Source: Membranipora membranacea (taxonomy: Eukaryota; Bryozoa; Gymnolaemata; Cheilostomatida; Membraniporidae). Taken from it: a stretch of 64,000 nt of DNA. The stretch lies in the NCBI GenBank assembly GCA_914767715.1, contig OU612067.1:14139001-14203000 (forward strand). Direction: 5' to 3'. Positions within the stretch are counted from its first letter, which is position 1. Each line of letters starts with the position of its first letter. The position numbers were made by a program, and so were the translations under genes. The notes under the pieces were generated by a model. The model had not been told where the DNA came from and searched no databases. It worked only from the letters and a program-made list of their open reading frames with translations. Of this stretch, positions 26,148-64,000 are shown one piece after another.

Positions 26148-29100
26148 ATGAGTAAGAGGAAGGGAAACCCAGACGGAAACCCACCAATGTGTGTTAAGCA
26201 GGCTAAGACAGACAAACCAACCAGGTCCAGTCAGCGTAAGTGTCAAAAGGTTACAAAATTTGTAAAGCTTAGGAATATTTTTAGTCCATAATGCTAGTGA
26301 GTTGATGCTGACAAATGAACGCAAGGAATGGCTAATGGCTTAGGCTTGGTGCCCAATTTAAGGAGTTGAATGACCCTTGCAGTGGTACACCATGTAAATC
26401 ACAAAATAGTGCAATCACTATGTGATACCTATCTTGGGATTCCAGCAGTGTCAGAATTCTACGACTCTATGAGTAACATTTTGGGCTAAAATCTAATTGT
26501 GAACATGAATCGCTCTTGCAAGTGGATGACCTGTATATTAGGATTTCCTTCCAGATTTCATTCCTGCATGTAGCAGTCAGTTAATCCTTCATACACCGTA
26601 TATATTGACAGTTATACATCTCATAAAACATCTCTGTTATCATATCGGAAGAAAGATGCTCTTTAAGGTCATGTCTTCAATTGAAAAATAAGAGTGCAAT
26701 AATAAAAATTTTTTCTGATCAGCCACTTAAATTTACCCTTGTTACACAGTTTGTAGTTTTAGCACAAATAAATAACTGGTATATCAATGCTAAGATGACT
26801 GAGGAGTTATAAAAATAATGTGTGTGATGTTTTAACAGCATACTGTACCATATCGTAGGCTCATCAGTCTTAATTTGACAGGCTTGCGTTTGATCCTACC
26901 TTGACTATTTTTTTGTGTGGTATACTCCAGGCTATACGATACAAATTATGCACTTGACATGCTTAGATAACTGAGGAGATATAGTAATAGTGTGTGCGTT
27001 GTTTGTTCCGCTGTTGATCATATTGAAAATCAACTCACAAAAGCGGCAATAACTGTACCATTTCAGTTGGCTCCTAGTCTTAATTTGACAGGCTGGTGTT
27101 TCATAATTCCTTGAATATTTATTTTGTGGTATACTCCAGGCTATACAATTGGTTTCCAGACCAATCTCAATCTAACACCGGGCAGTAAACAAATTCCAGA
27201 GTTCAAAATGGAGCACGTCACTGTAGATGAGTTGATTGCAGCTTCAAGAGGAATGGAACTATCACATATGTGTATTGATGGAGATATTCCACCTCAAATG
27301 GACACCATAGCACCGAATCTTCAGTGGCTAGAACTTAGATCTCTATCTCACGATGCAAAGCTACAAAGGTTTGTAATATGGTCGTTGGACATTGCAATAT
27401 TGATGACTTTTAGATTTTTTATGGCAGTTGCCTTCCCATGGCGTGATTTTTGAGCGATTTTAGAAATTTTTTGGAAAATAAAATGTTGGCGGCTTTTAAA
27501 AACGTTCAGAAACGTCGCATTGGAAGGCAGCTATTCAAAAACATTGACACTGCTAAAAACGTACAGAAAAACGTCCTAGTGTAAACACATCTTAACAGAG
27601 GGAAAATCGGGGCTATACGTTTCTAAATCAAACTATTCACTTTCCAAAAGAAAACAATTTCATATTGGTTGGTACACAATTATTTCAAAGGGTTGTCTTC
27701 TCTTGTTCAAAAAGAAGACAACATACTACTAATTATGCGGGTTAAAAAATGTGGGTTAAAATCTCAAGTTCTGTCTCTGTCCGACGACTGAGAAATAAAT
27801 GTGCCCTAAAGACTTACTTTGCAGCTGCAATTTTTGTATCACATCTTATTATCCATATTTTATTCTATCATGTGAGCGATTTCCAGCTTTAGAAGCCAAA
27901 TATTGACGAAGTTATGGTCTCTCAAACCTTCAAGCTGATCACCTTCAATTGGCATTGGGAATCAGCGGGCAATCCTTGTGGGACGTCACAACCGTCATAC
28001 TTATTATGATATACTAGTAGATAGGATGATGATCAAAATACTCAAAGATTTAGGTCTCGAACCCCGGTCCAAATAGCCCAGCAGGCAACGCTGCTAATGA
28101 TGAGCTATATTGTTGAAATTCTCACACAGCTGGAGGTGCGATGGTAGCCATCGGCGTTGCCTGCTGGTATAAAGGACCCGGGTTCGAGTACCACCGTGGT
28201 CTGAATTTTGATCATCATCTTATTGGTTGAGTTATTAGTATAATAAGTATGATGCGTTGTGACGTCCCACAAGGATTGCCCGCTGATTCTTAATGTCGAT
28301 TGACTGCCGTCACTTTGAAAGTTTGAGAGACCACAACTTTCTCAATATTTGGATTCTACAGCTGGAAATCGCTCTCATGATAGAATTAAGTATGGAGAAT
28401 AAGATGTGATACAAAATAGCAGCCTCATAGTAAGTCGTTAAACTACTGCTGCCACTCATGCAAATTTGTGCTCTTTGAATATTGCATAGCTTCGAGATAA
28501 TTAATTGAGACTTTAATCTTATAACATCACCTAATGGGCATATAATTTGCACAAACTGATCTTCAAAATCAGGGCATGAAATCTACGCACCAGGTGTACA
28601 ATTTGCACTAGTAAGACGGTAACTATGTCACCTGCTGCGGTAGATAATTAATTTCATACCCTAAATTTGACGATCAGTTTGTGCAAATTATTTGCTCATT
28701 AGGTGACAATGCTGAGATTCCAGCCTCATTTTATTAGTTTTCAGCTATACAGAATTCTATAAGCACACATTTGGCTGTGTGGCAGCAGTGGTTTAAGGGC
28801 ACTATCGCCATATTTGGCGACGAGTTGCTCTCAGTTTGCAAGGAGGTCAGAGTACACCTGGAGCATCGATTGAGCCCAGTAGTCTGTGATTCGAACCCTG
28901 GACCTCTATAAAATATCCCTTAAAAACCTGATAATCATAGAGACGCATGAGAGTAAAGTGCGAATCATTATTGGGAAAACATTGAAATATGTAGATTCAC
29001 TAAAGGTCGTTATCAAACTGTTTATGAAGTATGATTATTGTTACAGTATCAAAGCACTGACCAGACTCTCCACTATGATTATCAGCCAAAAGATTCAACA

Positions 29101-30925
29101 TACTACCATCGCTGAGAGCATCGGTCAGCTGACTAATCTCACCTCACTGAGTATCTGCAGCGATTCACTCACTACCATACCTGAGAGTATCGGTCAGCTG
29201 ACTAATCTCACCTCATTAAGTATCGGCGGCGACTCACTCACTACCATACCTGAGAGCATCGGTCAGCTGACTAATCTCACCTCATTAAGTTTCGGCTGCC
29301 GCTCACTTACTACCTTACCTGAGAGTATCGGTCAGCTGACTAATCTCACCTCACTGATTATCGACGGCCACTCACTCACTACCATACCTGAGAGCATCGG
29401 TCAGCTGACTCATCTCACCTCATTAAGTATCGGCGGCGACTCACTCACTACCATAGCTGAGAGTATCGGTCAGCTGACTAATCTCACCTCATTAAGTTTC
29501 GGCTGCCGCTCACTTACTATCTTACCTGAGAGTATCGGTCAGCTGACTAATCTCACCTCACTGATTATCGACGGCCACTCACTCACTACCATACCTGAGA
29601 GCATCGGTCAGCTGACTAATCTCACCTCACTGAGTATCTGCAGTGACTCACTCACTACCATACCTGAGAGTATCGGTCAGCTGTCTAATCTCACCTCATT
29701 AAGTTTCGGCTGCCGCTCACTTACTACCTTACCTGAGAGCATCGGTCAGATGACTAATCTCACCTCACTGAGTATCAGAGGCTACTCACTCACTACCATA
29801 CCTGAGTGCATTGGTCAGCTGACTACTCTCACCTCACTGACTATCAGCCACTTCACGCTTACTACCATACCTGAGAGTATCGGTCAGCTGACAAATCTCA
29901 CCTCACTGAGTATCGAATGCCACTCACTCACTACCATACCTGAGAGCATCAGTCACCTTACTAATCTCACCTCACTGAGTATCAGCGGCTCCTCAACTAC
30001 TACCATACCTGAGAGTATCGGTAACCTGACTAATCTCACCTTACTGATTATCGACGGCCACTCACTCACTACCATACCTGAGAGCATCGGTCAGCTGACT
30101 AATCTCACCTCACTGAGTATCTGCAGCGACTCACTCACTACCATACCTGAGAGTATCGGTCAGCTGACTAATCTCACCTCATTAAGTTTCGGCTGCCGCT
30201 CACTTACTACCATACCTGAGAGTATCGGTCAGATGACTAATCTCACCTCACTGAGTATCAGAGGCTACTCACTCACTACCATACCTGAGTGCATTGGTCA
30301 GCTGACTACTCTCACCTCACTGGCTATCAGCCACTTCACACTTACTACCATACCTGAGAGTATCGTTCAGCTGACTAATCTCACCTCACTGACTATCAGA
30401 TGCTACTCACTCACTACCATACCTGAGAGCATCAGTCAGCTGACTAATCTCACCTCACTGAGTATCAGCGGCTCCTCACTTACTACCATACCTGAGAGTA
30501 TAGGTCAGCTGACTAATCTCACCTCACTGAGTATCATTGGCTCCTCACTTTCTACCATCCCTGAGAGTATAGGTCGGCTGACTAATCTCACCTCAATGAG
30601 CATCATTGGCTCCTCACTTTCTACCATACCTGAGAGTATCGGTCAGCTGACTAATCTCACCTCATTAAGTATCGGCGGCCGCTCACTCACTACCATACCT
30701 GAGAGCATAGGTCAGCTGACTAATCTCAACTCACTGACTATCAGCAGCAGCTCACTCACTACCATACCAGAAAACATCTTCGACATTATATCATTGCAAC
30801 AGCTCAGATGTGATGGCTGTTATTCTCTAACATCACCACCTCGAGAGGTCTGTGAACAGGGCATTTTTGCTGTTAGAAGGTACGTCTCCGACTTGCATTT
30901 GGAGAGAGGGGACCTGAATTCATAG
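26148..30925 (+). CDS. Leucine-rich-repeat protein, truncated paralogue of the Roco-caspase gene (copy A)
   Basis: Three exons in phase: 26148-26235 (ATG, donor C|GTAAGT), 27140-27368, 29047-30925; 731 residues. The acceptor TTGTTACAG|T at 29047 is preferred over the upstream ATG in the same frame, because the sequence before it holds SINE DNA. After a basic start and about 75 residues of non-repeat sequence come 24 LRRs of 23 residues with consensus LTNLTSLSI.g.SLTTIPES, sequence variants clustering at the predicted solvent-exposed beta-strand positions. It ends with the capping block IPENIFDIISLQQLRC and a short tail. The frame then hits TAG, because a deletion of about 3.64 kb relative to copy B joined GAGAGAGGG to the 3' UTR. 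Roc, COR and caspase are all absent. No signal peptide is seen. It could be a soluble decoy or partner, or simply a broken gene. Confidence 0.8.
26787..27140 (+). repeat. Tandem duplication in LRR gene intron 1, including the exon 2 acceptor
   Basis: Two units, 26787-26937 and 26958-27150, share ATGCT(A/T)AGATGACTGAGGAG-like starts, CTTAATTTGACAGGCT in the middle, and TGGTATACTCCAG|GCTATAC at the end. The second unit ends with the acceptor used by exon 2, and the first carries a decoy copy of it. Copy B has the same arrangement (about 54350-54710). Confidence 0.6.
27811..28437. repeat. Long inverted-repeat (foldback) element in LRR intron 2, copy A
   Basis: Arms of roughly 260-300 bp pair around a centre near 28125: TTGTATCACATCTTATTATC matches the complement of GAATAAGATGTGATACAA, and GGGCAATCCTTGTGGGACGT recurs as ACGTCCCACAAGGATTGCCC. 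Each arm holds a tRNA-like segment (GGGTTCGAG, B-box type). It could form a large hairpin RNA in the intron. Confidence 0.7.
28528..28705. mobile_element. Foldback MITE in LRR intron 2, copy A
   Basis: Left end CACCTAATGGGCATATAATT and right end (reverse complement CACCTAATGAGCAAATAATT) form terminal inverted repeats of about 50 bp, extending through TTGCACAAACTGATC. There is no coding content. Copy B has it at 56067-56252. Confidence 0.6.
28783..28905 (-). mobile_element. SINE fragment just upstream of LRR exon 3, copy A
   Basis: Minus strand: GGTTCGAATC B-box-like start, then GACCTCCTTGCAAACTGAGA, the body seen in the SINE at 15285-15477. It is truncated at the B box. Copy B equivalent is about 56320-56455. 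Its presence argues against coding use of the frame upstream of 29047. Confidence 0.5.
29110..30780 (+). repeat. 69-bp coding repeat array (24 LRR units), copy A
   Basis: Same unit as copy B. A block of seven units (about 483 bp) starting with the IIDGHS variant is repeated: 29566-30048 and from 30049. The variant order is the same in both blocks apart from single changes. Confidence 0.8.
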
Positions 30926-31039
30926 ACTTTCACCAGGCATGTATAGAAATGTGTGTATAAATATAATGCTAATGCAAGGATGTAGTATAGTATGGCGGCC
31001 CATAGCACCTTTATTAATGTGCATTAGTTAACTAATGCG

Positions 31040-39145: not shown

Positions 39146-39489
39146 GCAGTTCTAACAACGCGCGTTGTTAGAACTGCGCATTATTGGAACTGGCATTGTT
39201 GGAACTGCGCATTGTTAGAACTGCGCATTGTTAGAACTGCGCGTTGTTAGAACTGCGCATTGTTAGAACTGCGCATTGTTAGAACTGCGCATTGTTAGAA
39301 CTGCGCGTTGTTAGAACTGCGCACTGTTAGAACTGCGCATTGTTAGAACTGCGCATTGTTAGAACTGCGCATTGTTAGAACTGCGCATTGTTAGAACTTC
39401 GCATTGTTAGAACTGCGCATTGTTAGAACTGCGCATTGTTAGAACTGCGCATTGTTAGAACTGCGCATTGTTAGAACTGCGCATTAGAA
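39146..39489. repeat. 16-bp minisatellite, about 20 units, starting with a palindrome
   Basis: The unit is ATTGTTAGAACTGCGC, repeated about 20 times with few changes. The array opens with an inverted unit: CGCAGTTCTAACAACG directly followed by CGCGTTGTTAGAACTGCG. It lies inside the 9.2-kb insertion and has no counterpart elsewhere in the window. Confidence 0.85.
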
Positions 39490-46400: not shown

Positions 46401-47619
46401 ATCATGAGTATGCAGCAAGCTGCCAGAAACTGGAAGAGGCACTAATCGCCCATTGGCAGTGACACTTAGATCATAGCCAATAGGCTGAGAGGTGGTTACC
46501 TGGATGCATTCCTAATAAAACAATCAGCTAAATAAATAAAAGTTGTAAGGAAGCCATACCATCAGTATATGAAATACAGAGGGTGATTTGATTAGAATAT
46601 ATCGAATATATCACACGACTGTCTTGATGCACTTCCAAGAGGATTTGATGCTGAGGGCAATTATTGTCTCAAGACGGGGGAGGGGAGACTCAATCTAATG
46701 ATCACGAGAGTTAGAAGTGGAAACTATGAGGTAGGGGGAGCCCAGTGGTGATTACAAATGGAAATGCATCAATTTTAGCCATATTTTGGAAAACTAATAC
46801 TTATGATATATAGGGGCAATGGCCCCTAGATAAAGTAGGAAGGGGGACACCATCCCCATGCATCCCCCCTAAATTCTAACACTAATAATCATGAGAGTAA
46901 GCAATTAGTAAGTAATTAGTAATTAGTACTGTACAACACATGAGACAACAACAAATTCTCAGATGACCTCCACGTCCACAATTAATTGATCAATGTGAAC
47001 AATCCCCATGAGATATAAAACTTGATCCAATTAGTTGCAAAGGTACAGTTATGCTATGTAATTTTGCTTGGCTAGCATATGCTGTTGTAGAATGCATACT
47101 CAGCTGCATCCAAACTAGAACGATCCATGGATTTGGCGTTCTCACATAAAAATTTTAATATCAATCCAGGATAAATAGTTGTCAATGGTTTGAAGTATTC
47201 AGCTGTTAGACCTTAAATGATTAATGCACACGTTTGATAAGGATGTAAATCTTCAAGTTCTTGTTCCAATTATAACAACAACATCTAGGCTAAGGCCAAT
47301 GTCTATATAGAAGTACAGGCGAAGCAGAAGATGCACAGAGATTGATCATACTTAGTAATTTGGTGTTGACAAGCAAAACCCTTGGTTAATAAATCCACCC
47401 CCCCCCCCTGTCTCGTCCTCACTTTTCCAGCCTAGTCCTTCTTGCTTTTGGGTTTTACAGAGTAAGTAGTACTTGAAAATTGGAAATGTGTTACACTAAT
47501 TTCTTAGCAGAATTTAGGGAAAAAATTTATTGGGGTTGTGTGTCACATAATTCTGTGTCAGCAAATTCCATTTTTATGATAAACACATCACTACTGCATC
47601 TTTAACTCCCAAAAAATGG

Positions 47620-47661
<42 letters not shown>

Positions 47662-49442
47662 TATTTATATGAAATATATCTTATTATATATATATATATA
47701 ATACCTCTATGTAGGTAATGTACTCACCACTCAGCAGAATAAAGTACTTTTTCCAGTTAGTGCAGCCTGTTTTAGGTATGTGACAGTACAACACCTTGTA
47801 CTCGTCATTGACATAGATTTCATCAAGATTCCTATACAGATTTAAGGTATGTTTCATGGGAGGTTTGATCGGAAACCCGTTATTTGCGCACCAGTTACGC
47901 AAGGTGGTCTGCCTATCTCTTAGTTGATCCTAAAAATAATATTGACACAAATAATGATTACGAACTTTTTCAAGTTAATCCTTTAATGTGTGGTTTTGGT
48001 TTCCCAATCTAAGCTAGGTAACACAGGCTTCTAAATTCAAACAATATCATGTCTAATGGTTTGATCACATCACTTGTTGAGAATGAATTAGATACGAAAT
48101 TGTGAACAATCGGCCCTTTCTAGAACACAACACTATCATTGACTATAAGCTTCTAAGCTATGAAGCCATAACAGTTCCGGATCCTACAGGTCGGAGGAAA
48201 TAGATTACCGATAATGTACAAGTTTGTATCATTGATCATGTTGAAATGCGGACTCACAATTTCCTGCTGAGAATAATAGTGTGTGGTCATATACAGTGGT
48301 GAGGTAGGGGGGGGGGGGGTCAAGGTGAACCCATCTGCTAGAAAAACTCAATCATAGTTTGGATAGTAACAAAGTCTTTGTAGCTTTTCATACCTTTGTA
48401 CATCTTGAAGGAAGAGAAAACTTCGCAGAGAGCTCCGGACCTTTTTCCTGTTGACCTGCTGTCAAATAGGTAATGAATTTAAAAGGTGAGAATTTGGAGA
48501 TATATTCATTAATATTTGAGTAATGTGAGAGCGAAAATGATTGACAATGTTCCCCATAAAAAGCCTTTGCAGACAAGTGAACCAAGTGGAGCAGATGAAG
48601 AATACAGTTGCGCTCTGGTTTTTCTGGGGCGTAGCTTTGCAAAAAATTGTAGGGGAGGCAAAAGTCAACAGCAAAAACAAAAGAATCACCAGGAGAGGTG
48701 CTGTAAGCCGTTCCTGAGTCGTTTAAGGCATATAATTAACAAATGGAAATCCTATAGGAGCCGATTCTGACATAGATTATTCAAATATAGTGTTTTAGGT
48801 CACTGTATTTAGCTTACCAGGGGAGGCAGTGCCTCACTGCCTCCCCTATAGCTATGGGCCTGTACATTACTCATATATTAAATGAGTCAAAAGTGATTTA
48901 ATACAAGTTCTGATGTCACCTGTCATTACCTCCCCCCTCCCCCCCCCCCCGATTGATAAAACGAAGAGAGCAAACAGGATTTGTTTAGCTAGCCCAGAGG
49001 AGTCAATATTAACTAGGATTTTAGTTCAGCTAGTTTTATGATGATGACTTTATGACTTTATGTGGGTGTCTATAAAATTGAAAGAGTTAGAGGTTCGCTT
49101 GTCTCAAATTTAGCAATTTCAAGCATATGAATATATACAAATCTTTCACATGCCATATGCCGGCAGTTCTCAAGCTGTCTTAGGGAACAGACCAACATTT
49201 AAACAAAACCCCCTTCGCTTTGTGACAAAACACTCACTATTATCAGCCTCGATTTCTTTTGGCAATTCCTCCGAGATGGTATCAAAGTCATTGCTGGCGA
49301 TCTCCGGAGACTTGATCTGTATAACAGCAGAGTCAGCTACTGGTAGTCTTACCGCTACTAACCCAGCCAAGAGTATTAGGCATACACCAACAGTTACGAG
49401 CAAACAGCTTAGAGTTACCCTAGAGAACCAAGTCCTCATCAT
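43406..49442 (-). CDS. Carbohydrate sulfotransferase, copy B
   Basis: Paralogue of the copy A gene with the same six-exon structure and identical exon lengths: 49442-49238, 48458-48394, 47929-47728, 45713-45551, 44376-44107, 43568-43406. It encodes 355 residues. The P-loop-like PKTGCTNW, the RHPLTR motif and the HW...LCHPC block are all intact. A few amino acids differ from copy A in exons 1, 2, 5 and possibly 6, for example in the membrane anchor and around the PEG.N.HMNEH stretch, while exons 3 and 4 look identical at the protein level. No stop codons or frameshifts were seen, so both copies look functional. Its largest intron has gained a hAT-type MITE (45882-46301). Confidence 0.9.
43661..43851 (-). 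mobile_element. tRNA-derived SINE in copy B sulfotransferase intron
   Basis: Same element and position as 15285-15477 in copy A, with one base missing near the anticodon-like region and a few substitutions. It was duplicated with the segment, not inserted independently. Confidence 0.65.
45414..45572 (-). repeat. Minisatellite built from an exon end and its splice donor (copy B)
   Basis: Copy B counterpart of 17036-17282, with only about seven units, so the array has changed length since the duplication. The real donor of exon 4 is at 45550/45551, inside the array border. Confidence 0.75.
45882..46301. mobile_element. hAT-type MITE with internal tRNA-like sequence (first copy)
   Basis: 420 bp flanked by an exact 8-bp duplication CCTAAAGA (45874-45881 and 46302-46309); copy A has one CCTAAAGA at the matching site near 17590. 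The ends are CAGGGGCGCATATT and, inverted, CAGCGGCGTATATT. An 8-bp duplication and CAG-G-G-type ends fit hAT. Inside are a GC-rich hairpin (GGGCGCTTAAGCGCCC core) and, on the minus strand at about 46176-46258, a tRNA-like block with an A box (GCTGAATAGCTCAGTG) and B box (GGGTTCGAATCCC). Confidence 0.8.
46400..46497 (-). mobile_element. U2-like SINE, copy B
   Basis: Copy of 17690-17785 carried by the segmental duplication, with extra substitutions in the U2-like head (GGCTGAGAGGTGG on the plus strand at its end). Confidence 0.5.
46620..46910. other. Copy-B-specific sequence in sulfotransferase intron 3
   Basis: Copy A runs from ATATATCACAAGACTGTGTT to AGTAATTAGTACT directly, while copy B has about 290 extra bases between. 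No clear terminal repeats or target duplication could be placed. Nothing coding is seen. Confidence 0.4.
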
Positions 49443-49959
49443 ACCTGCAGACCGTTAATAAATATCTTCAACAAACAGAAATGTTGTCTAATACATCAAA
49501 ACTCCTGAAGAGATTGTTTTTTTAAACAGCTCTGTTATCGTTGATATTACAGCTTATTGAGTAATTTCCTGATATAAGCTTGTAAAATTACTAAGAGACA
49601 AGGATTTAATCATAGATAGCATAGCAATGTACCCAATAATCCTGTGCACTTGAAAAAACCTGTGTGCTAGCTATGAATGAACACTACGCAACTACACCAA
49701 TACTTCCGTTAGCTACTTGTCACATTTTCTACTTGTACGCTATTGTTATTTATAAACACAAGGCAGTAAAGATGGGCACAACTTGCTACGAGAACAGCAG
49801 CAGCTTCTAAGCAGATATCAAATTAGGCGTTTGTATGATTCATAGCCGGTGCTGCTTCAGCTCATCCAATCAGTGAAGCCAAAAGTATAAGCCAGACCAC
49901 ATTGTAATTAATCTGATGCCTACTATAACAATAGATCACTTGTTTTCACAGAGTAAGGA

Positions 49960-49989
49960 CAGAGACTATAGATATATCTATAGTCTCTG
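49960..49989. mobile_element. 30-bp perfect palindrome inserted in copy B with 7-bp duplication
   Basis: The half-arm is CAGAGACTATAGATA and the other half is its exact complement. GTAAGGA is repeated on both sides (49953-49959, 49990-49996), and copy A has one GTAAGGA at the matching site near 20880. It is either a minimal element or the footprint of an excised transposon. Confidence 0.65.
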
Positions 49990-50243
49990 GTAAGGATAAA
50001 ATAGGAGTTCTCTTTTGTTGCAATAAAGTTGTGATTAAAATCATGTTCTATAGACGGGCTTATGCAGTGATATCAACTCATGGATTAGTGGTGATGATTT
50101 GTGAAGAAATTACATCATTGTATACTTTTGTGTCAGTAATTGGATCCAGGTAAAATTCTGGCAGCTTTAACGTAATGCATTGTCTGATTATCCCAGTAAC
50201 AAGCTTTTAAAACTCAGGCAAAATGTTTACAAGGGGTTGGCGG

Positions 50244-50656
50244 CAGGGGCGTATATTCTAAAAAATTTCACTCACTGACTTTTTAGAGATGAGCATAATG
50301 ATCGGGCACAGCCCGATCCACACGCCGTAGGCGTGGCGGGGAGGGTGTGGGAGGGGCGCTTAAGCGCCCTCCCACACGGAAATTTTTGCATATCGGTAGC
50401 AAAATAGTGCAAGCAGAGAGGTATTTCAATAGCTCACTGAGCTGTTGGGTACTTTCAGAAAACAACTCAATAGCAGTAGAAGATTACGGTAAAAATGCTC
50501 CAGTTATAAAGCATTAATTTGAAAAAAACTGACCTCGATGGGATTCGAACCCACAACAATCTCATTAACAGTGATTACAAGGCAAACGCTCTACGCACTG
50601 AGCTATTCAGCCACTCACGGAAATCCGTGGGCCGTGAGTGGTAATATACGCCACTG
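50244..50656. mobile_element. hAT-type MITE with internal tRNA-like sequence (second copy)
   Basis: 413 bp, nearly identical to 45882-46301 and in the same orientation. It is flanked by the exact 8-bp duplication GTTGGCGG (50236-50243 and 50657-50664). Copy A has the empty site with one GTTGGCGG near 21122. The ends are CAGGGGCGTATATT and, inverted, CAGTGGCGTATATT. The tRNA-like block lies at about 50527-50612 on the minus strand. Confidence 0.8.
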
Positions 50657-50716
50657 GTTGGCGGTAGCATTACTGAACTTTTGGACCAATAAAAGATGAG
50701 AAATCGTTTCCAGCAA

Positions 50717-51811
50717 TCAAGCATAAATTGCCATGTGCTTGTTCAGGGTCAGATATGTTCCCCTTATCAATGAATATATATCAGTGGGCCTATGACTTTG
50801 ATCGATTGTCAGTCCTACTATAGTGAAAGATATCATGGCAAGAGAATCACCAAAAAGACTTTGTCCGTCCTGGTGTAATAGTGGAGGGATATGACACAAG
50901 TAAGGACATCAACGCAACAGCGACAGCTTTCCTTCGCTAAATCTCTCTACCACCGAACCCCAGGGAGAAAAGATACAGTGAACTGAATTTCAGATCTAAA
51001 AAAAAATTGAGCAAAGACCTGGGAAGCAGGAGATAATGTAGACTGAAAGGAAGAGAATGAAGTAAAAGTATCAATGTTGAATAGAATGGATGCTTTTAGC
51101 CATCTGTACATGTAAAATTGTGACTTGAAACTGAACCTTGAAAACTTGCATCTGCGTGTACGATATTCGTACATCATCCAGGTTCTATTTACAAGTCAGG
51201 GGAGAAGAAATCCAACTGTATGATTTCTTATGTATATACCATGATCTTTATTATATCCAACTTTGTATTCAGACGATGTAGATGGTCAGAAAATAAAGCA
51301 GCTCCTCAAACAATATGGTCTGCTTACTCCGGCTTAATTTCAAAAAAAATTTTGGCGCAAGGCCCTATAATTCTAAAGCAATCATGGACTAATGAGAACA
51401 TGTTAATCATGAAAAATTTAAATTTAATATCTAGGTATTATTATATTAAAGCCCCATTAATTTGGAAATAGTCTACAATAGAACAACAACATGGACCTGT
51501 TGAGTAATAATATTAGCTATAGGTTTGTTTGGCTAGTTTGGGTGTGACTTTACAACTTTCACCCAAAGCCATTAAGGAGAAATATTTCTATTCATTACCC
51601 AACTTCTTAAACCCTTCCATTTTTAAGAAATGCATTATTGGTAGCGAATAAGCTTCTAGGCATTCCTCTGGTAGTTTAATAATAGACAGCCAAAAATATT
51701 CACCTGCAAAACACCTGAAACCAAGAAGTTCAGGATATATAAACTCCCTGCTAAAAGTTAGTATTGAATAATGGATTGGAGTAGAAGTTGCCATCTCTTA
51801 TTACATGGTCA
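50717..51811 (-). pseudogene. Relict of an older sulfotransferase copy (copy B, shortened)
   Basis: Counterpart of the copy A relict, but it ends at about 51811, where the sequence jumps to the equivalent of 24254. The part holding relict exons 2 and 3 is absent. Only 3'-flank and intron-4-like sequence remains, so no coding part is left. Confidence 0.55.
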
Positions 51812-53708
51812 TGTTGTGCAGCTTCACTGGGGCGCATTATTGTAGGGACACAACGACATACAGTAGCACTACGGTTCACTCACAAAGTTCATCGATTTGC
51901 AGCCAACAGTCTGGGTGTAATGATGATAAATCCATCAATTAGGATCGGTATCTGAATCTAAATATTGCAAAATGCCAAAATTTTTCAATAGAATTTGAAA
52001 TTTCAAACTGATGGCAGTATAGACTGCAACTCTCCCTTGGAGTATTTCTTGTTAAAGTTATTTAAGATTAACATTGGCTATGAGTCGATTGAGTGACTCA
52101 AATGAGGAGCAATAACACAACGTCACAATAGCTGTACTGAAAGAACGCATACAACAAACCAAAATTATTCTGACATTAATCCCTTATCAAAATATTGATT
52201 AATTGAGAAGAATGCTACGCCTGAAGACGAATGCCCCACCTCTCTAGCTTAAGTTATTTTGCAGTGATGTACACTTGGAACTTTTTAGTTATCCTATTGA
52301 TAATTGTGAGGAAATAACTCTTATACTTAAGTTTCTTATTGACAGGTTTTCTATAGGGATTCTAAGAGTGTTGCTAGCCTCGAAAATATAGTCTCAAACA
52401 AAACCAGTCTAATATTATTCTATGGGGAAATCCCAAGCTGCAAGTAGTAAAGAAACTTCTTCTGAGGAGAATATCTATATCTGTTGATTGTTGAGGATGT
52501 GATGTAATTAGGTCCACTCCCTGAACTTTCTTCTAAAACAGGAGAAGCATCTTTTGTTATGGCAGATCAAAGAATAAGATCTATTGCCACTTTCACATAT
52601 TTATTAACTAGCCAAGTTCAGGTAGTAGTTTTTTACTTTTATTCACTCCACTGTTTGTAAATTGTAGTACCAACCACAGGGGAGTGAGCTATTAATCAGT
52701 CCAATGTTAATGCAACAAGGACAACTTCTCATTGGTTTTAGTATAGGAATCTGGTATGCATAAGCCGTAAAAGAGCATGTAGGTAGGTGGTCTTAGAGCT
52801 TATAACTTGTGACTTAATAACTTTTATAACTCGCTGCTATTAACTGTTCTTCTATTCCATTATTATCAAATCATAATCATCATTCTCCCTGCAACCATGG
52901 CTTGGCTCACTTTGACAGCAGGTGAAGTTAGCCAAGATAGTGTGCTAATGGGAGAAACAAGCCTAAGAACCTTTGTTCATATACATTTTGGTTTGTAGTG
53001 ATCCTATGTAACCCACTGGCTTGCAAGCTTGAAACTCAGATAGCAGCAGTTTCACAACTGAATTTTGTATTGTAATTTCAATTCTAGAAATAGGCCTATG
53101 TTAGCCTAGGCAGCTGTCGGGGGTGGCTGGGTGGAGGACCACCCACCCAATGGCCTGCCTGCCATTTCCTCTGCAAGCAAGGTTTTGTGGTGATGCATTG
53201 ACAGACATTTATATTTAAACATGCTAGGCAGCATCAGCTTTGTGCGTAGCACTATACATTCATATGAATCTACGCTGAACAGAATATCGGTTTATGGTGT
53301 CTTGAAGTCATCGCAATGACAGAGCATGAAAGTTGAAACTTTTCTGTGTCACTTCTTTCTTAGTTAAGTGTGTGCAACTTATAGCCCCTGATTGGTGACA
53401 TATAACTCCGATTATCTCACTGAATAATTCTATGATTTTTGTCAAGTTTTGGTCGGCATGCTTAAGATCTAATCTGCTGTCGATCAACAAAGCCTTCTCC
53501 AGAACCCGGGTCGCCCCGTAGCAATGTTGCCATTTCCCGATCGCATTGTTCCACTTTACTATTCCCATGCTTCCTTGAGTTTTTACAGCTCAAGATTCTC
53601 TTATTTCGTAATGAATGAAAGAAGTTGGGTATGTTACAGGTTGGAGCAACAATTAGTGATTTCAAGTATATTCAGGTTTAACTATACCAAGTAGTCCATA
53701 CTGATACC

Positions 53709-56700
53709 ATGAGTAAGAGGAAGGGAAACCCAGACGGAAACCCACCAATGTGTGTTGAGCAAGCTAAGACAGACAAACCAACCAGGGCCAGTCAGCGTAA
53801 GTGTCAAAAGGTCACAAAATTTGTAAAGCTTAGGAATAGTTTTAGTCCATAATGCTAGGGAGTTGATGCTGACAAATGAAGGCAACGAATGGCTATGGCT
53901 TAGGCTTGGTGCCCAATTTTAGGAGTTGCATGACCCTTGCAGTGGTACAACATGTAAATCACAAAATAGTGCAATCACTATGTGATACCTATCTTGGGAT
54001 TCCAGCAGTGTCAGAATTCTACGGCTCTACGAGTAACATTTTGGGCTAAAATCTAATTGTGAACATGAATGGCTCTTGCAAGTGGATGACCTGTATATGA
54101 GGATTTCCTTCCAGATTTCATTCCTGCATGTAGCAGTCAGTAAATCCTTCATACACCATATATATTCAGAGTTATACATTTCATAAAACTGCTCTGTTAT
54201 TATGTCGGAAGAAAGATGCTTTTTAAAGCCATGTCTTCAATTGAAAAATAAGAGTTCAATAATAAAAACTGTTTTCTTATCAGCCACCTAAATTTACCCT
54301 TGTTACACAGTTTATAGTTTTAGCACAAATAAATAACTGGTATATCAATGCTAAGATGACTGAGGAGTTATAAAATAGTGTGTGTGATGTTTTACCAACA
54401 TACTGTACCATATCAGTAGGCCCATCAGTCTTAATTTGACAGGCTTGCGTTTGATCCTACCTTGACTATTTATTTGTGTTATACTCCAGGCTATACGATA
54501 CTAATTATGCACTCGACATGCTTAGATAACTGAGGAGATATAGTAATAGTTTGTGCGTTGTTTGTTCCGCTGATGATCATATTGAAAACCAACTCAAAAA
54601 AGCGGCAATAACTGTACCATATCACTTGGCTCCTAGTCTTAATTTGACAGGCTGGTGTTTATTGATACCTTGAATATTTATTTTGTGGTATACTCCAGGC
54701 TATACAATTGGTTACCAGACCAATCTCAATCTAACACCGGACAGTAAACAAATTCCAGAGTTCAAAATGGAGCACGTCACTGTAGATGAGTTGATTGCAG
54801 CTTCAAGAGGAATGGAACTATCACATATGTGTATTGATGGAGATATTCCACCTAAAATGGACACCATAGCACCGAATCTTCAGTGGCTAGAACTTAGATC
54901 TCTAGCTCACAATGCAGAGCTACAAAGGTTTGTAATATGGTCGTTGGACGTTTATAGCAATATTGATGATTTTTGGATTTTTTAAGCGAGTTGCCTTCCC
55001 ATGGGGTGATTTTTGAGCGATTTTAGAAATTTTTCAGAAAATAAAATGTTGGCGGCTTTTAAAAACATTCAGAAACGTCACATTAGAAGGCAGCTATTCA
55101 TAAACGTTGACACTGCTAAAAACGTATAGAAAGGCGTCCTAGTGTAAACTCACCTTAACAGAGGGAGAATCGGGGCTATACGTTTCTAAATCAAACAATT
55201 CACTTTCCAAAAGAAAACAGTTTCATATTGGTTGGTACACAAGTATTTCAAAGGGTTGTCCTTTCTTGCTCAAAAAGAGGACAATATACTACTAATTATG
55301 TGGGCTAAAAAATGTGGGTTAAAATCTCAAGTTCTGTCTCTGTCTGAAGACTGAGAAATAAAGGTGCCCTAAAGACTTACTTTGCAGCTGCAATTTTGTA
55401 TCACATCGTATTATCCATATTTTATTCTACCATGTGAGTGATTTCCAGCTTTAGAAGCCAAATATTGAAGAAGTTTTGGTCTCTCAAACTTTCAAGCTGA
55501 TCACCTTCAATTGGCATTGGGAATCAGCGGGCAATCCTTGTGGGACGTCACAACCGTCATACTTATTATGATATACTAGTAGATAGGATGATGATCAAAA
55601 CACTCAGAGATTTGGAGGGTCTCGAACCCCGGTCCAAATGGCCCAGCAGGCAACGCTGCTATCATGAGCTATATTGTTGAAATTCTCACACAGCTAGACT
55701 TAGTGGTGCGATGGTAGCCATCGGCGTTGCCTGCTGGTATAAAGGACCCGGGTTTGAGTACAACCAAGGTCTGAATTTTGATCATCATCTTATTTGTTGA
55801 GTTATTAGTATAATAAGTATGATGCGTTGTGACGTCCCACAAGGATTGCCCGCTGATTCTTAATGTCGATTGACTGCCGTCACTTTGAAAGTTTGAGAGA
55901 CCACAACTTTCTCAATATTTGGATTCTACAGCTGGAAATCGCTCTCATGATAGAATTAAATATGGAGAATAAGATGTGATACAAAATAGCAGCCTCATAG
56001 TAAGTCGTTAAACTACTGCTGCCACTCATGCAAAGACTTTAATTGAGACTCAAATCTTATAATTATCACCTAATGGGCGTATAATTTGCACAAACTGATC
56101 TTCAAAATCAGGGCATGAAATCTACGCACCAGCTTATGACGTGTACAATTTGCACTAGTAAGACGGTAACTATGTCACCTGTGGCGGTAGATAATTAATT
56201 TCATACCCTAAATTTGACGATAAGTTTGTTCAAATTATTTGCTCAGTAGGTGGCAATGCTGAGATTCCAGCCTCATTTTATTAGTTTTGAGCTATACAGA
56301 ATTCTATAAGCACACATTTTGCTGTGTGGCAGCAGTGGTTTAATGGCACTATCGGCATATTTGGCGCCGAGTTGCTCTCAGTTTGCAATGAGGTCAGAGT
56401 ACACCTGGGGCATCGATTGAGCCCAGTAGTCAGTGAATCGAACCCTGGACCTCTATAAAATATCCCTTAAAAACCTGATAATCATAGAGACGCATGAGAG
56501 TAAAGTGCGAATCATTATTGGGAAAACATTGAAATATGTAGATTCACTAACAAGGTCGTTATAAATCTGTTTATGAAGTATGCTTATTATTACAGTATCA
56601 AAGCACTGACCAGACTCTCCACTATGATTATCAGCCAAAAGATTCAACATACTACCATCTCTGAGAGCATCGATCAGCTGACTAATCTCACCTCACTGAG

Positions 56701-59700
56701 TATCTGGAGCAACTCACTCACTACCATACCTGAGAGCATCAGTCAACTGACTAATCTCACCTCACTGTTTATCGGCTGCCCCTCACTTACTACCATACCT
56801 GAGAGCATCGGTCAGCTGACTAATCTCACCTCATTAAGTATTGACTGCGACTCACTCACTACCATACCTGAGAGCATCGGTCAGCTGACTAATCTCACCT
56901 CACTGCGTATCAGTGGCCCTTCACTCCCTACCATACCTGAGAGCATCGGTCAGCTGACTAATCTCACCTCATTAAGTTTCGACAGCGACTCACTCACTAC
57001 CATACCTGAGAGCATCGGTAAGCTGACTAATCTCACCTTACTGAGTATCAGCGGCTACTCACTCACTACCATACCTGAGAGCATCAGTCAGCTGACTAAT
57101 CTCACCTCACTGAGTATCAGCGGCCCCTCACTCACTACCATACCTGAGAGCATCGGTCAGCTGACTAATCTGACCTCACTGGATATCAGTGGCCCCTCAC
57201 TCACTACCATGCCTGAGAGCATCAGTCAGCTGACTAATCTCACCTCACTGAGTATCAGTGGGCCCTCACTCACTACCATACTTGAGAGCATCGGTCAGCT
57301 GACTAATCTCACCTCACTAAGTATCAGCAGCGACTCACTCACTACCATACCTGAGAGCATCGGTCAGCTGACTAATCTCACCTCATTAAGTATCGGCGGC
57401 TTCTCAATCACTACCTTACCTGAGAGTATCGGTCAGCTGACTAATCTCACCTCGCTAACTATCAGCAGCTCCTTCTTTACTTCCATACCTGAGAGTATCG
57501 GTCAGCTGACTAATCTCACCTCGCTAACTATCAGCAGCTCCTCCTTTACTTCCATACCTGAGAGTATCGGTCAGCTGACTAATCTCACCTCACTGAGTAT
57601 CAGCGGCGACTCACTCACTACCATACCTGAGAGTATCGGTCAGCTGACTAATCTCATCTCACTGAGTATCAGCAGCGGCTCACTCACTACATTACCTGAG
57701 AGCGTAGGTAAGCTGACTAATCTCACCTCATTGGATATCAGCTGCTCCTCACTCACTACCATACCTGAGAGTATCGGTCAGCTGACTAATCTCACCTCAC
57801 TGACTATAAGCAGAGGCCTCTTACTCACTACCATACCTGAGAGAATCAGTCACCTGACTAATCTCACCTCACTGATTATCAGCGGCTCCTCACTCACTAC
57901 CATACCTGAGAGTATCGGTCAGCTGACTAATCTCATCTCACTGAGTATCAGCAGCAGCTCACTCACTACATTACCTGAGAGCGTAGGTAAGCTGACTAAT
58001 CTCACCTCATTGGATATCAGCTGCTCCTCACTCACTACCATACCTGAGAGTATCGGTCAGCTGACTAATCTCACCTCACTGACTATAAGCAGAGGCCTCT
58101 TACTCACTACCATACCTGAGAGAATCAGTCACCTGACTAATCTCACCTCACTGAGTATCAGCGGCTCGTCACTCACTACCATACCTGAGAGTATTGGTCA
58201 GCTGACTAATCTCAACTCACTGTATATCGACAGCCGCACACTTACTACCATACCGGAGAGTATTGGTCAGCTGACTAATCTCACCTCATTAAGTATCGAC
58301 AGCGGCTCACTCACTACCTTACCTGAGAGTATTGGTCAGCTGACTAATCTCACCTCATTAAGTATCGACAGCGGCTCACTCACTACCTTACCTGAGAGTA
58401 TCGGTCAGCTGACTAATCTCACCTCACTGATTATCACCGGCCACTCACTTACTATCATACCTGAGAGCATCGGTCAGCTGACTAATCTCATCTCACTGAT
58501 TATCAGCCGCTCCTCACTCACTACCATACCTGAGAGTATCGGTCAGCTGACTAATCTCATCTCACTGAGTATCAGCAGCGGCTCACTCACTACATTACCT
58601 GAGAGCGTAGGTAAGCTGACTAATCTCACCTTATTGGATATCAGCTGCTCCTCACTCACTACCATACCTGAGAGTATCGGTCAGCTGACTAATCTCACCT
58701 CACTGAGTATCAGCGGCTCCTCACTCACTACCATACCTGAGAGTATCGGTCAGCTGACTAATCTCACCTCACTGAGTATCAGCGGCTCCTCACTCACTAC
58801 CATACCTGAGAGTATCGGTCAGCTGACTAATCTCAACTCACTGTATATCGACAGCCGCACACTTACTACCATACCGGAGAGTATTGGTCAGCTGACTAAT
58901 CTCACCTCATTAAGGATCGACAGCCGCTCACTCACTACCTTACCTGAGAGTATCGGTCAGCTGACTAATCTCACCTCACTGATTATCACCGGCCACTCAC
59001 TTACTACCATACCTGAGAGCATCGGTCTGCTGACTTATCTCTTCTCACTGAGTATCAGCAGCGGCTCACTCACTACCTTACCTGAGAGTATCGGTCAGCT
59101 GACTAATCTCACCTCACTGATTATCAGCGGCTCCTCACTCACTACCATACCTGAGAGTATCGGTCAGCTGACTAATCTCATCTCACTGTTTATCAGCCGC
59201 TCCTCACTCACTACCATACCTGAGAGTATCGGTCAGCTGACTAATCTCACCTCACTGAGTATCATTGGCTGCTCACTCACTACCATACCTGAGAGTATCG
59301 GTCAGCTGTCTAATCTCACCTCACTGGCTATCAACGTCGGCTCACTCACTACCATACCTGAGAGTATCGGTCAGCTGACTAATCTCGTCTATCTAACTAT
59401 CAACATCTCCTCCCTTACTTCCATACCTGAGAGTATCGGTCAGCTGACTAATCTCACCTCACTGGATATCGGAGGCTCCTCACTCACTACCTTACCTGAG
59501 AGTATCGGTCAGCTGACTAATCTCACCTCGCTAACTTTCAGCAGCTCCTCCTTTACTTCCATACCTGAGAGTATCGGTCAGCTGACTAATCTCACCTCGC
59601 TAACTATCAGCAGCTCCTTCTTTACTTCCATACCTGAGAGTATCGGTCAGCTGACTAATCTCACCTCACTGAGTATCAGCGGCTCCTCACTCACTACCAT

Positions 59701-62700
59701 ACCTGAGAGTATCGGTCAGCTGACTAATCTCACCTCACTGACTATCAGCAGCAGCTCACTCACTACCATTCCAGAAAATATCTTCGATATTATATCATTG
59801 CAACGGCTCAGATGTGTTGCCTGTTATTCTCTAACATCACCACCTCGAGAGGTCTGTGATCAGGGCCTTTTTGCTGTTAGAAAGTACTTCCATGACTTGC
59901 ACTTGGAGAGAGGGCGTAACCAGCGACTTATACCTGTTACGGTTATTGGGAATAGCAAAGCAGGGAAAACAAGTCTGGTGTTGAGTGTTCAACAAAATAA
60001 AAGAGTACTAACTGAACGTAATCCTGCTGAGAGCAAATTGGATGAGGCAACAAGAGTCTTCAAAGTATTCGAGGCGGATGTCAATGAAAGTTCTAAATTG
60101 GTATTTTCTGACTTTGGAGGGCAAAAGATTTACAATTTCTCATACCAGTTGAGCTTCAAAGCCCGTTGCCTTCCGCTGCTTGTAATAGATATAGCGGATT
60201 TTGACAGATTAGCCTCACTGGATGGAGAAGAAGTAGCATGCCAAGAACTTTGTATAAATTGGCTGACACACCTGTATCTCTCATGTCCGAGTCTCGGCCG
60301 ACCAATAATAGTCCTTACACATTGTGACAGAGTTACTAATGAATGCTTGAAACATCGAACGCAACAGCTTGTGAACACTACAGAAACTCTACGTATGAGG
60401 ATAATCAAGGAGGAGAACAAAGTAGGATCTACATTGAGCCCATTCTTTATCATGGCTAGCTTCGCAGATATCACTGAATTGTTTGTAAGGACAGAAAACA
60501 TTGCCAACCTATCAAAGACCTCTAATCTAGCTGACATTGAGAGACTTAAAGAATTCCTTGAAGCTTCAGGATCTAAGATTATCACAGAATTACCGGCAAG
60601 CTGGTACCGAATACTCATCAAAATAACAAGTGACAAAGACAAGCCGTTCTTCACCCTTTCTGAGATATACGAGCTCTTTCCTGATGACACTGATCATGTG
60701 GCACTTCAGTATCTTCATGATTCAGGCAGAATAATGTGGTTCAAGAGTGTCGAAGGTCTCGCCTCCTTCATATTCCATCGCCCTGAGGTTCTCACTGCTC
60801 TTATTGAGACGCTGTATAATCACACTCAAGATGCCGCCTGGGTTACACGATTAGCTAGCTTTACCTCATATATCTGGGCCGGAAAGACAATCGAGACTAG
60901 AAAATATACGGAGATGGTCAATCAGTTTCAATCAACAGGGGTTATGGAAGCTGCATTGCTCCATCATTTACTAGAACAAGAATCAGAGCTTCACCCTGAC
61001 ATTGGAATTGAAGTCCTGAAAACTTTCCACCTTATACACAAATTCGCAGATAAATGTATTATCCCTTACTTTGCTACCAGGAAAGTCTCAATTCCTGCCA
61101 TTCATACTCATCTCATCCCACTGAAAGTAGATCTGTTTCTACAAGGTCTACCTGTCCCCACATATGTTTACTCACTCATTACGGCGGCATATTTAGACAT
61201 CAATGTGAATCCAGTCAATCATGTCGAGGCTGGAAGGAATGGCGCTACTGTCACAGAGATCACCGGTCTGTTCAAATACCTTGTTCATGATGAATCTGCA
61301 AGATGTGTGACATTGACCATCCTCTGCCCGGCCAAGAGAATCTGCGAGGCGTGGAGGGATCAATTGGACACGCTGAGCAAACTAACAACTGAATTCAAAA
61401 CCGTGTGGAAGGCTGTCCGTTATGAGAGTGTTTTCTATTGCTCACATTGTCTGCTGAACAACATACAAAACCCAACTACGCATGTTGATCCTGCTTGGCT
61501 CGAGAAGCCAGTACAACTAGAGAGCAGTTTTTCAGGAGATGAGACATGCTACTGCCGACATGTGAAGAATAGTGAGGTTGATCGATCGATTCCACTCCCA
61601 CTGATGTATCCATGTAAGTAGCAAAACCATTATCCTTTCTAGAAATATCCAGATCACATTTGATTTGTTATTCTTGCTCATCTTTGTCAGCTCATGTCAA
61701 TTCTTTTTATGGCAAGACATTATTCCTAAACTAGGATGTTTTACTGAAGTTTTTTTTTATGTAGTTTTCTAGTACCAGGTTTTTGACAGAGATGTTGGGT
61801 CAAAATCACATTTTATGCAGACAAATTTTGGTCAAACATAATACAGTCAAGCAGATGATGATAGATGATAGATAGATGATGATCGAGTTTATTTGGTTTA
61901 TTATACTTGATGGTCTCATTGCAGGTTTGACCAGCAGCGAGCTAGGAATTGATAGATTACAAGACTATGTGACAAATATCACGGCTCTGTCCGGTAAGTC
62001 AGATAAGTCAGCTCCGACAGGGCTTCACAATTATTCAATCTGACCATGGATTCTAATTAAAATCCTCTTGAACTACCAGAAATTACTTATTCGCAGGCTG
62101 ATTGTTAGGTTAGGAAAATTGCAAAGAATACTGCAATTGAATCCAATCAAAAGCAACTGGATACAAATGGAAGAGAATGCATTATAAAGCTGGTTGATCT
62201 GCTTTAAAAATTAGCGTTTGGTGTGTTTATTCCTATTTTCGCGCATAGCTTCAACATCGGTGTAGCAGTGACAACCTCTAAAACTACATTAATTTATTCT
62301 CATAGATAAGTCGCAAGTGATGAAACTGCTTATGGAAAAGTATCCACTAGACATGAGCGACATCAGACTGTTATGTGATCTCAGTGATCAGTACATCATA
62401 CCCTATACACAAACTCATGTGAAACGATGTGGGCTCGTGCTGTTCAACAAAGATGGTAGAGTCAACGCGCTAGAGGAGGCCTATGCTATGGAGGACGGCC
62501 TCACAAGAGCAGGCATTGAGACAAAGAAAACAGAATGGTCTAGTGCTATACAACTGTTTGACTTGATAGAAACTCAAATCACAGAACTGGTCTCATGTGG
62601 ACTATCCCTACTTGTGATGTCCATCATGTCACATGGTATAGCTGGAATGCTAACAGGAAGTGACCACACACAGGCAATCATTACTGACATCCTCAAAGAA

Positions 62701-63493
62701 ACAGAGAAACAACTTCCAGAGCATATACCGTTGGTAAGAAGAGCTATTAACCTTTTGTTCACTTATGTCATCTTTGGGATAGTTTCACAGGGTTTACATG
62801 AGATCTACCAGTACCAGTCATGTGACCACATCCGTCACTGTAAATTTCTGCAAAAAATTATGATGTGAGTTAGTCTGAGAACAGACACAACGCCAGGATG
62901 ATGATGTGGAACGCAAAGAAATTCTAACTTTGCATCCACTCCACACGTTATACGTTTCAGCTTGAAATGGGTATCAACTACAATTCCCAAACAAGAGCAT
63001 GTATGTATGTAACCTGCCCCTTTACTGTTTTGAAAACATGATGATTTGTAGTTGTATTCTATTGTTGTAGATAATTATGATCCAGGCCTGTCAGGGTGAA
63101 CATGAAGCTTCTGGATCAACCTCTACAAGCAGCCTAAGAGATGCCCAGGGCTCAACAGCAAAGGATAACCAGCTGATCAAACTGAAGAGGCCTCACACCT
63201 TGTTACTCATGTCTACAGTACATGGAGGGATGTCTGTCAGAGGGGCGTTCACTGGAGCTATCGCGAGACAGATAGCTAAAGCTGATGGTAAGACTACTAT
63301 AGAAGAGATGGTGACTAAGGCTAATATAGATCTAAAGAAGAACGAACCAGATCAGTACAATCAGACACCAGAACTAAGAAGTACACTTCAGAAGAGTCTA
63401 GTACTTCCACCAGGAGAGCAGAAATCTGATTCTCTACAAAGCCTGAATAAACCATCTAAGATGAATCTTCTCAAAAAGCTTGGTGTTCTTTAG
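53709..63493 (+). CDS. LRR-Roc-COR-caspase fusion protein (Roco-family GTPase with C-terminal caspase domain)
   Basis: Six exons in phase: 53709-53796, 54699-54927, 56596-61613, 61925-61993, 62306-62733, 63071-63493; 2,084 residues. Order: basic start; 45 LRRs of 23 residues (about 125-1165); capping block; Roc GTPase with P-loop GNSKAGKTS (1224-1232), DFGGQ (from 1278) and THCD (1347-1350); COR domain from about LPASWYRILIKI (1438), with FYCSHC in its later part; then a caspase domain. In the latter GLVLFNKDGR, SHGIAG (His1911), IQACQGE (Cys1951) and STVHGGMSVR (Arg2001) match caspase large- and small-subunit motifs, and QTPELRSTLQKSLVL matches the end of the small subunit. The linker has Asp1968 and Asp1976 as possible processing sites. 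Roc domains bind GTP and control dimers; caspases cut after Asp. A sensor-switch-protease role in cell death or immunity is inference. The start is the ATG with donor GTAAGT, conserved in copy A. Confidence 0.85.
55374..56006. repeat. Long inverted-repeat (foldback) element in LRR intron 2, copy B
   Basis: Copy of the element at 27811-28437. Arms and tRNA-like segments are conserved, with small indels near the centre (an extra block after CACACAGCTAGAC). Confidence 0.65.
56067..56252. mobile_element. Foldback MITE in LRR intron 2, copy B
   Basis: Counterpart of 28528-28705, with a small insertion near 56132-56140 and more mismatches between its ends. Confidence 0.55.
56665..59780 (+). repeat. 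69-bp coding repeat array (45 LRR units)
   Basis: Each unit is 69 bp (a few are 72) and encodes one 23-residue LRR. The DNA of the invariant part, CCTGAGAGTATCGGTCAGCT then GACTAATCTCACCTCA, is almost unchanged from unit to unit. Higher-order blocks recur, for instance the run SGSLTTLPESVGK, SCSSLTTIPES, SRGLLLTTIPERIS occurs at about 57660 and 57960, and a shorter version at about 58560. The homologous array in copy A (29110-30780) has 24 units. Confidence 0.85.
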
Positions 63494-64000
63494 AACGCAA
63501 ACACATAACAATCTCTCTCAGTTTAGTTGCATTCATCGGCCATCACTCGGGGGACCTGAATTCATAGACTTTCAACAAGCATGTATAGAAATGTGTGTAT
63601 AAATATAATGCCAATGCAAGGATGTAGTATAGACATATTATTCATCTATTCATTTCAATATCATTACTAAGCGTATTATAACAACGCACCCCTAATTCTT
63701 TTCCATGTTTGAGTTCTTGTAATTTTTGTAATTGTTCATCTACAACTATTCTGTATTATCTCTATAACATATAATATATATTTACTAATAATGAATACTT
63801 TTACAATAATATGCTTCTCTCCATCACCCCTACTGCCAGTCAGATATCTGGCTATTTTTTGGAAATTTCTCATTCATTACCATACTTTATTTCTGTATCA
63901 TATTCAATACAGCAAATATATCCTACACCTATTACACTATGTGATGCTACCGAGAATCTATGTTGAAATGATAGATTGAGAAGACAATTATCAATGCGAA
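63494..64000 (+). other. 3' flank of the Roco-caspase gene
   Basis: It starts after TAG at 63491-63493. 63551-63630 matches 30911-30990 of copy A, and 63624-63890 matches 40224-40497, so this is the uninterrupted version of the 3' flank. No clear AATAAA is seen before the window ends. Confidence 0.5.

Follow-up and report, generated by a model that had tools for sequence, protein, structure and literature searches.

Does an animal Roco protein end in a caspase of its own? The question is raised by a gene in a window of 64,000 nucleotides from chromosome 3 of the colonial cheilostome bryozoan Membranipora membranacea (C3:14139001-14203000), in which a preliminary description had read six in-phase exons as one protein with leucine-rich repeats (LRRs), a Roc GTPase, a COR domain and a C-terminal caspase. 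The gene occupies positions 53709-63493 of the forward strand; each of its junctions is GT-AG, and the frame runs unbroken through 2084 amino acids to a single stop. The 45 LRRs and every motif and residue named in that description were found as claimed: GNSKAGKTS at residue 1224, DFGGQ at 1278, THCD at 1347, SHG at 1910 (His1911) and QACQGE at 1949 (Cys1951). It is almost certain, because of the evidence from paralogues, that LRRs, Roc, COR and caspase are predicted parts of one protein from a single gene and not the products of two neighbours.

The paralogues were sought in a genome of 339,339,785 bp in 18 contigs (the published assembly, in the part of its description available to us, has 339,374,674 bp, 21 scaffolds, 11 chromosomes and 14.7 kb of mitochondrial DNA; PMC10290214). 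The mitochondrial contig of this genome, 14,741 bp long, translates sensibly if AGR is read as Ser and ATA as Met at conserved sites. With the Roc-COR exon as query, a search in all six frames gave at least 74 scored places from 232 first-look candidates, and a more distant query (P0018) gave 64, raising the Roc-COR places to 124. From 148 Roc-family matches, 69 were kept by eye as Roco type (frames of at least 371 amino acids, plus two of 204 and 233 amino acids beside a cluster on chromosome 5), while 79 were dropped before counting, either as short exons or as complete frames of small-GTPase-like type; those kept added 18 places, making 142 distinct Roco-type places. Caspase matches numbered 286 (145 with the Pfam family and 141 with the window caspase as query), each of them an exon and not a gene. 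At 73 of the first 74 Roc-COR places, a caspase match lay on the same strand at most 3.5 kb downstream, with none upstream and none on the opposite strand, and the same control on all 124 places, within 4 kb, again returned zero for both. Overall, a same-strand caspase match was scored downstream of 114 of the 142 places: at the 124 Roc-COR places the limit was 4 kb and 107 had one, and at the 18 added places the limit was 6.5 kb from the Roc match and 7 had one. Of the 28 places without such a link, L072 and L073 were read. A caspase exon is clearly present at both (39.2 and 45.1 bits), so that for these two the idea of a swapped effector in Rocos without a caspase match was rejected.

The linkage by itself would also be produced if a Roco gene and a caspase gene were neighbours and were always duplicated together. 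Such a pair could account for the stop that is met almost immediately when the frame is read past the Roc-COR exon, and for the in-frame methionine codons of exon 5 in the window gene; moreover, the fusion is read from genomic DNA. The structure of the paralogues argues otherwise. In four copies of the tandem array to which the gene belongs (L015-L018), a shared internal deletion has fused COR to caspase, joining the first 463 of the 588 residues of the Roc-COR query to most of the caspase p20 in one open exon. Outside those four, and with the window gene counted, inspection by eye showed the GT donor of the Roc-COR exon at a constant place in all 26 loci. Exon 5 was found in 24 of the 26; its GT donor likewise does not shift, and its AG acceptor keeps its phase, with the codon either unchanged or the preceding one. 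Exon 4 is matched at the corresponding place in paralogues L010-L014 and, weakly, in L019. In 8 of the 26 loci, the stretch from the upstream stop to the caspase core has no in-frame methionine, and in 11 of the remaining 18 the only one is that of HMKR or HMKK, right before the core. Caspase matches near Roc-COR places sit downstream on the same strand, and in a truncated copy in the window the 3′ flank of the caspase exon follows straight after LRR. Distances between Roc-COR sequences and between caspase sequences correlated closely (Mantel r 0.988, reached in none of 2000 permutations) over 24 loci, a set that includes many near-identical copies. With this comparison strongly supporting the one-protein claim of the preliminary description, two co-duplicated genes are scarcely credible. 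Chance is likewise very unlikely in view of the paralogues, and a fusion created by assembly or annotation was rejected on paralogue linkage, splice conservation, the one-exon copies, the methionine counts and the distance correlation.

The stop beyond the Roc-COR donor is in frame and lies within 61614-61625, and a transcript retaining that intron would yield a Roco without a caspase.

The domains were identified by profile and by predicted fold. A caspase profile match, on which the preliminary description had staked its reading, was found: Peptidase_C14 scored 51.8 bits against a cut-off of 21.4 (1.2e-13), over profile positions 18-232 of 233. The other two profiles named there gave less, Roc lying at its cut-off (27.0 bits against 27) and COR-A below it (24.2 bits against 35.3). 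The modelled Roc-COR region matches the Chlorobium tepidum Roco and LRRK2 (Foldseek and VIA-align; 3dpu, 6hlu and LRRK2), and also 3dpt, which is a COR domain alone. A COR domain directly following Roc is thus indicated by the modelled fold and not by Pfam score, and the P-loop and Roco-type G motifs of the predicted Roc GTPase place the protein in the Roco family. Neither NACHT nor NB-ARC is present in the protein, whose nucleotide domain is Roc by both profile and fold. Neither a kinase nor a death domain was listed by Pfam at E ≤ 0.1 in residues 1-155 and 1158-2084, between which lie the LRR units.

The 45 LRR units are spaced by 23 amino acids in 42 cases and by 24 in two. Among the 43 units of 23 amino acids, variability peaks at positions 8, 10, 11 and 12 (1.8-2.6 bits), followed by position 5 (1.1 bits), and Leu7 and Ile9 are conserved beside these variable positions. 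The ratio of non-synonymous to synonymous differences (pN/pS) is 1.08 at positions 6-12 and 0.49 elsewhere, which is a pattern and not proof of positive selection, as repeat turnover homogenises the units. Open frames in four relatives, the window gene included, are 1634, 1705, 1745 and 2462 amino acids long, and these differing sizes point to a varying number of LRRs.

The caspase active site was examined across the family. The closest solved caspase by sequence is caspase-8 (6px9, 6.7e-5), and the alignment covers the catalytic His and Cys, the Gln before the Cys and the C-terminal Arg of p10; the N-terminal Arg was placed by eye. Arg, Gln and Arg are the residues that we take to form the Asp-specific S1 pocket. 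At distinct sites in the loci examined that aligned at E ≤ 1e-8 and had a Roc-COR place upstream, the catalytic His was kept in 30 of 30 and the Cys in 15 of 15, as were the N-terminal Arg (26 of 26), the Gln (15 of 15) and the C-terminal Arg (15 of 15); one further site covering Cys, Gln and Arg belongs to a caspase on chromosome 7 with no Roco linked to it. By sequence, the domain has the His-Cys dyad and the S1 pocket of an Asp-specific caspase. Caspase-like domains that are inactive occur elsewhere, in cFLIP and in bacteria (PMC8195603 and PMC7159879, in the parts available), and the bryozoan domain could in the same way have been kept as a binding or scaffold module. Its catalytic and checked S1 residues are intact at every Roco-linked site examined, which makes the loss of protease function highly improbable. 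Two candidate sites of self-cleavage, Asp1968-Ala and Asp1976-Asn, were read by eye in the linker between p20 and p10, and an Asp-Ala pair is also seen by eye in the corresponding linkers of L036, P0021 and P0023.

The window gene is, by sequence comparison, one of more than 100 such genes, a lineage-specific expansion in M. membranacea. It is the first of eight close Roc-COR copies in a tandem array at C3:14.198-14.361 Mb, which extends beyond the window. Within the window, a segmental duplication pairs 13996-30910 with 42586-59914, offset by about 27.5-29.5 kb, in pieces 92-98% identical; the last part of the upstream copy is an LRR-only gene. In this truncated duplicate the sequence passes from the start of Roc directly into the 3′ flank of the caspase exon (Table 1). 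The ratio of non-synonymous to synonymous substitution rates (dN/dS, omega) was 0.11-0.21 in Roc-COR and 0.08-0.28 in p20 for comparisons with dS above 0.2 and unsaturated. Exon 6 (63071-63490) differs from its copies on chromosome 11 by a dS of only 0.03-0.05, against about 0.2-0.26 for Roc-COR and exon 5, and gene conversion of this exon between chromosomes 3 and 11 is possible.

Several observations weigh against a family of working fusion proteins. The gene structure rests on genomic DNA, and the genome-level comparison covers one species. Aside from the two that were read, a scored caspase match is lacking at 26 of the 142 Roco-type places, and 118 of the 286 caspase matches are not downstream of any Roco place found. 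COR-A falls under its Pfam cut-off, with Roc barely at its own, and frames of 68 and 101 amino acids between Roc-COR and caspase at L072 and L073 matched no Pfam family at E ≤ 0.1, giving no sign of a death-fold adaptor domain as linker. Selection is also uneven: omega is 0.44-0.50 in Roc-COR of the nearest tandem copies, and exon 6, with very few changes to count, gives 0.5-1.5 against near and chromosome-11 copies. L012 has a stop inside Roc-COR, and about 1 kb is gone from L015-L018 through their internal deletion. Together with the upstream copy in the window, which lacks Roc-COR-caspase, such cases could mean that many or most copies are decaying repeats, left by tandem duplication and making no working protein. 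At larger distances, however, omega is low (0.19-0.32 in exon 6), 73 of 74 Roc-COR matches contain no internal stop, splice sites are conserved, and no Roco-linked site that was checked has lost its catalytic residues. General decay is improbable on these grounds; the examined copies mostly appear functional from their sequences, with the youngest less constrained.

We consider it probable, though well short of certain, that the genes form an expanded family of cytosolic, single-chain, inflammasome-like receptor-executioners. The LRR solenoid would bind a ligand or another protein and so relieve autoinhibition. The Roc-COR tandem would act as a nucleotide-driven switch of oligomerisation, as expected from the Roco family; the C. 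tepidum Roco shifts its oligomeric state with nucleotide (PMC11052575, in the part available). The caspase domains of two copies could then meet and be activated by induced proximity, and self-cleavage in the p20-p10 linker, after candidate Asp1968 or Asp1976, would free the protease. Once freed, it would cut downstream targets, and the cell would be killed or an alarm raised. The LRR-only duplicate may act as a decoy. A single weak gasdermin match in the genome (C2:5647683-5647877, 28.2 bits against a cut-off of 25) is a possible executioner and downstream target.

The genomic setting is consistent with such a role. An exon-wise search of the whole genome gave one partial match to NACHT (27 candidates, all scored) and none to NB-ARC (3 candidates), in a design from which domains split by introns could escape and which had no animal positive control. 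Because of these two limits, NLR-type receptors in M. membranacea are best described as almost none, rather than none. The one-piece inflammasome- or apoptosome-like switch suggested in the preliminary description agrees with the retained active-site and S1 residues, the mostly purifying selection, the variable LRRs and the near-absence of NACHT and NB-ARC; its immune or cell-death function is one that we infer. The family probably takes the place that NLRs and caspases, as separate proteins, hold elsewhere among animals, whether the role is pathogen defence or allorecognition between colonies. We put forward only tentatively, as possible rather than probable, the wider proposal that Membranipora, and perhaps cheilostomes at large, have next to no repertoire of NLR or Apaf type and use well over a hundred LRR-Roc-COR-caspase receptors as a single-chain GTPase inflammasome, with LRR-only decoys as built-in antagonists.

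The same receptors could instead serve allorecognition (colony fusion or rejection and the policing of self and non-self) rather than microbial defence, with LRR variation tracking self markers. Colonial bryozoans are listed among allo-incompatible animals (PMC8195603, in the part available), and tandem arrays, frame sizes that point to differing LRR numbers and variable LRR positions suit polymorphic recognition of either kind. The evidence gathered here fits both uses alike; use in allorecognition rather than defence is considered unlikely.

In searches beyond this genome, no long or fused relative was found in the protein database at E ≤ 0.001 among 7985 candidates scored, and for 18 protein relatives the match is confined to the Roc-COR exon, 56-66% of the query. 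P0001 gave 3 pattern matches in IMG/VR contigs, and profile A1 gave 54 in prokaryotic genome contigs, with none confirmed in either case. The Roc-COR exon (P0006) and the caspase exon (P0019) each list one JGI contig of 8,216 bp, probably the same contig and from a second animal, which is a lead only.

The features of the gene and of its truncated duplicate are collected in Table 1. The acceptor sequence of exon 2, tactccag|gctatac, recurs at 54489-54499, about 200 bp 5′ of the acceptor that is used. Elsewhere in the window, a 16-bp unit is repeated in tandem at 39160-39485 (20 copies, 95% matches), and several long open frames at 5363-13241 on the forward strand are possibly exons of an unrelated gene. 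Rfam gave no match within the window at gathering thresholds.

Table 1. Gene features and truncated duplicate in the window, with positions counted from its first nucleotide.
Feature	Position	Strand	Remarks
Truncated duplicate	26148..30990	+	Stop after exons 1, 2 and an LRR exon; Roc-COR-caspase gone
Exon 1	53709..53796	+	Start ATG at 53709; also found in the upstream duplicate
Exon 2	54699..54927	+	N-terminal region ahead of the LRRs; kept in the upstream duplicate
Exon 3	56596..61613	+	45 LRRs, Roc, COR, then a C-terminal stretch with Cys/His
LRR array	56651..59769	+	69-bp unit x 45 (TRF)
Roc GTPase core	59936..60211	+	Pfam match; Roco structures matched by Foldseek and VIA-align; P-loop at 59948-59974
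COR-A	60599..60883	+	Pfam match below cut-off; modelled COR fold reaches ~61440; 3dpt match
Exon 4	61925..61993	+	Linker, 23 amino acids
Exon 5	62306..62733	+	Encodes a linker and p20 of the caspase, with the catalytic His at codon 62632-62634
Exon 6	63071..63493	+	Catalytic Cys codon 63089-63091, p20-p10 linker, p10, stop
3′ flank, start of untranslated region	63494..63632	+	63550-63632 kept 3′ of the truncated copy (96.4% identity over 83 bp)

What appears new here is a caspase as the effector of a Roco, present in over 100 copies; the Roco itself is of a known kind. The preliminary description knew of no animal Roco with its own caspase, and this agrees with the literature searched, in the available parts of which none was found, although Figure 2 of PMC11378527, with about forty animal Roco architectures, may contain one. 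Full-text literature pairing 'Roc domain' with 'caspase domain' described no such fusion in the parts available. The available text of a paper on the evolution of NLR inflammasomes mentions neither Bryozoa nor Roco (PMC11508797), a survey of cnidarian receptors does not contain Roc as a whole word (PMC8260672), and the main text of a bryozoan genome paper has no word starting with caspase or immun (PMC13326412). In the accessible portion of a paper on sponge NLRs, CASc and COR are among the abbreviations of one figure legend, with no statement that a protein shares them (PMC12909245). Amphioxus has at least 45 caspases, some in new combinations with death-fold domains, and the available main text lacks the terms LRR and NACHT (PMC3196919).

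Roco proteins have been divided, in the available part of PMC6337361, into group 1 with LRR-Roc-COR only, group 2 with an added kinase, and a third with DAPK1. The bryozoan protein falls outside group 1 because a Peptidase_C14 domain is present at its C-terminus, and outside the DAPK type because it has neither a kinase before Roc-COR nor a death domain. It shares the order LRR-Roc-COR with the group-1 proteins MFHAS1 and C. tepidum Roco, and the fold with the latter, but ends in a caspase where these have no C-terminal effector (PMC6337361, same part). LRRK1 and LRRK2, of group 2, likewise place a catalytic effector after LRR-Roc-COR and match in Roc-COR fold, their effector being a kinase whereas the bryozoan one is a protease. 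The nucleotide control of a C-terminal enzyme by Roc-COR, which is central to work on LRRK2, would become testable by a protease rather than a kinase read-out.

Other Rocos with immune-type domains have been described. Those of sea anemones and Aplysia include TIR-Roc-COR proteins and, in the parts of the sources available, carry TIR, death or kinase domains and no caspase (PMC5094078, PMC9334734), unlike the bryozoan protein. The brown-algal LRR-ROCO proteins, of groups 1-3, belong to another lineage and have LRRs on separate exons, whereas the bryozoan LRRs lie in exon 3. Some of them end in peptidase domain IPR009003, presumably a trypsin-like serine/cysteine peptidase fold and not a caspase. 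According to the available part of PMC11378527, they form an expanded set with LRR shuffling and are proposed immune receptors; the C-terminal IPR009003 domain occurs in three group-3 members, and some SAR relatives have a C-terminal peptidase domain too.

The closest comparisons to the predicted output are with the caspases and inflammasomes of other animals. Caspase-8 has DED prodomains and is recruited via adaptors. The bryozoan caspase, to which it is the closest solved caspase by sequence, has the same active-site residues as this initiator type, and LRR-Roc-COR occupies the position of the DEDs. Accounts of immune cell death in animals usually have a STAND-ATPase receptor relay the signal to a caspase by way of adaptors. 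If the reading proposed here is true, that relay has been naturally replaced by a Ras-like GTPase switch with a caspase on the same chain, in more than 100 copies and alongside hardly any NACHT or NB-ARC, and this may be the main alarm-and-kill system of this bryozoan. The NLR inflammasome and the Apaf-1 apoptosome would be alike in having a nucleotide switch and a caspase output, and the NLRs also in their LRR sensor. They build on a STAND NTPase and distribute these parts over separate proteins, whereas the bryozoan protein would use a Ras-like GTPase in one chain, in which sensor, switch and protease need never find each other.

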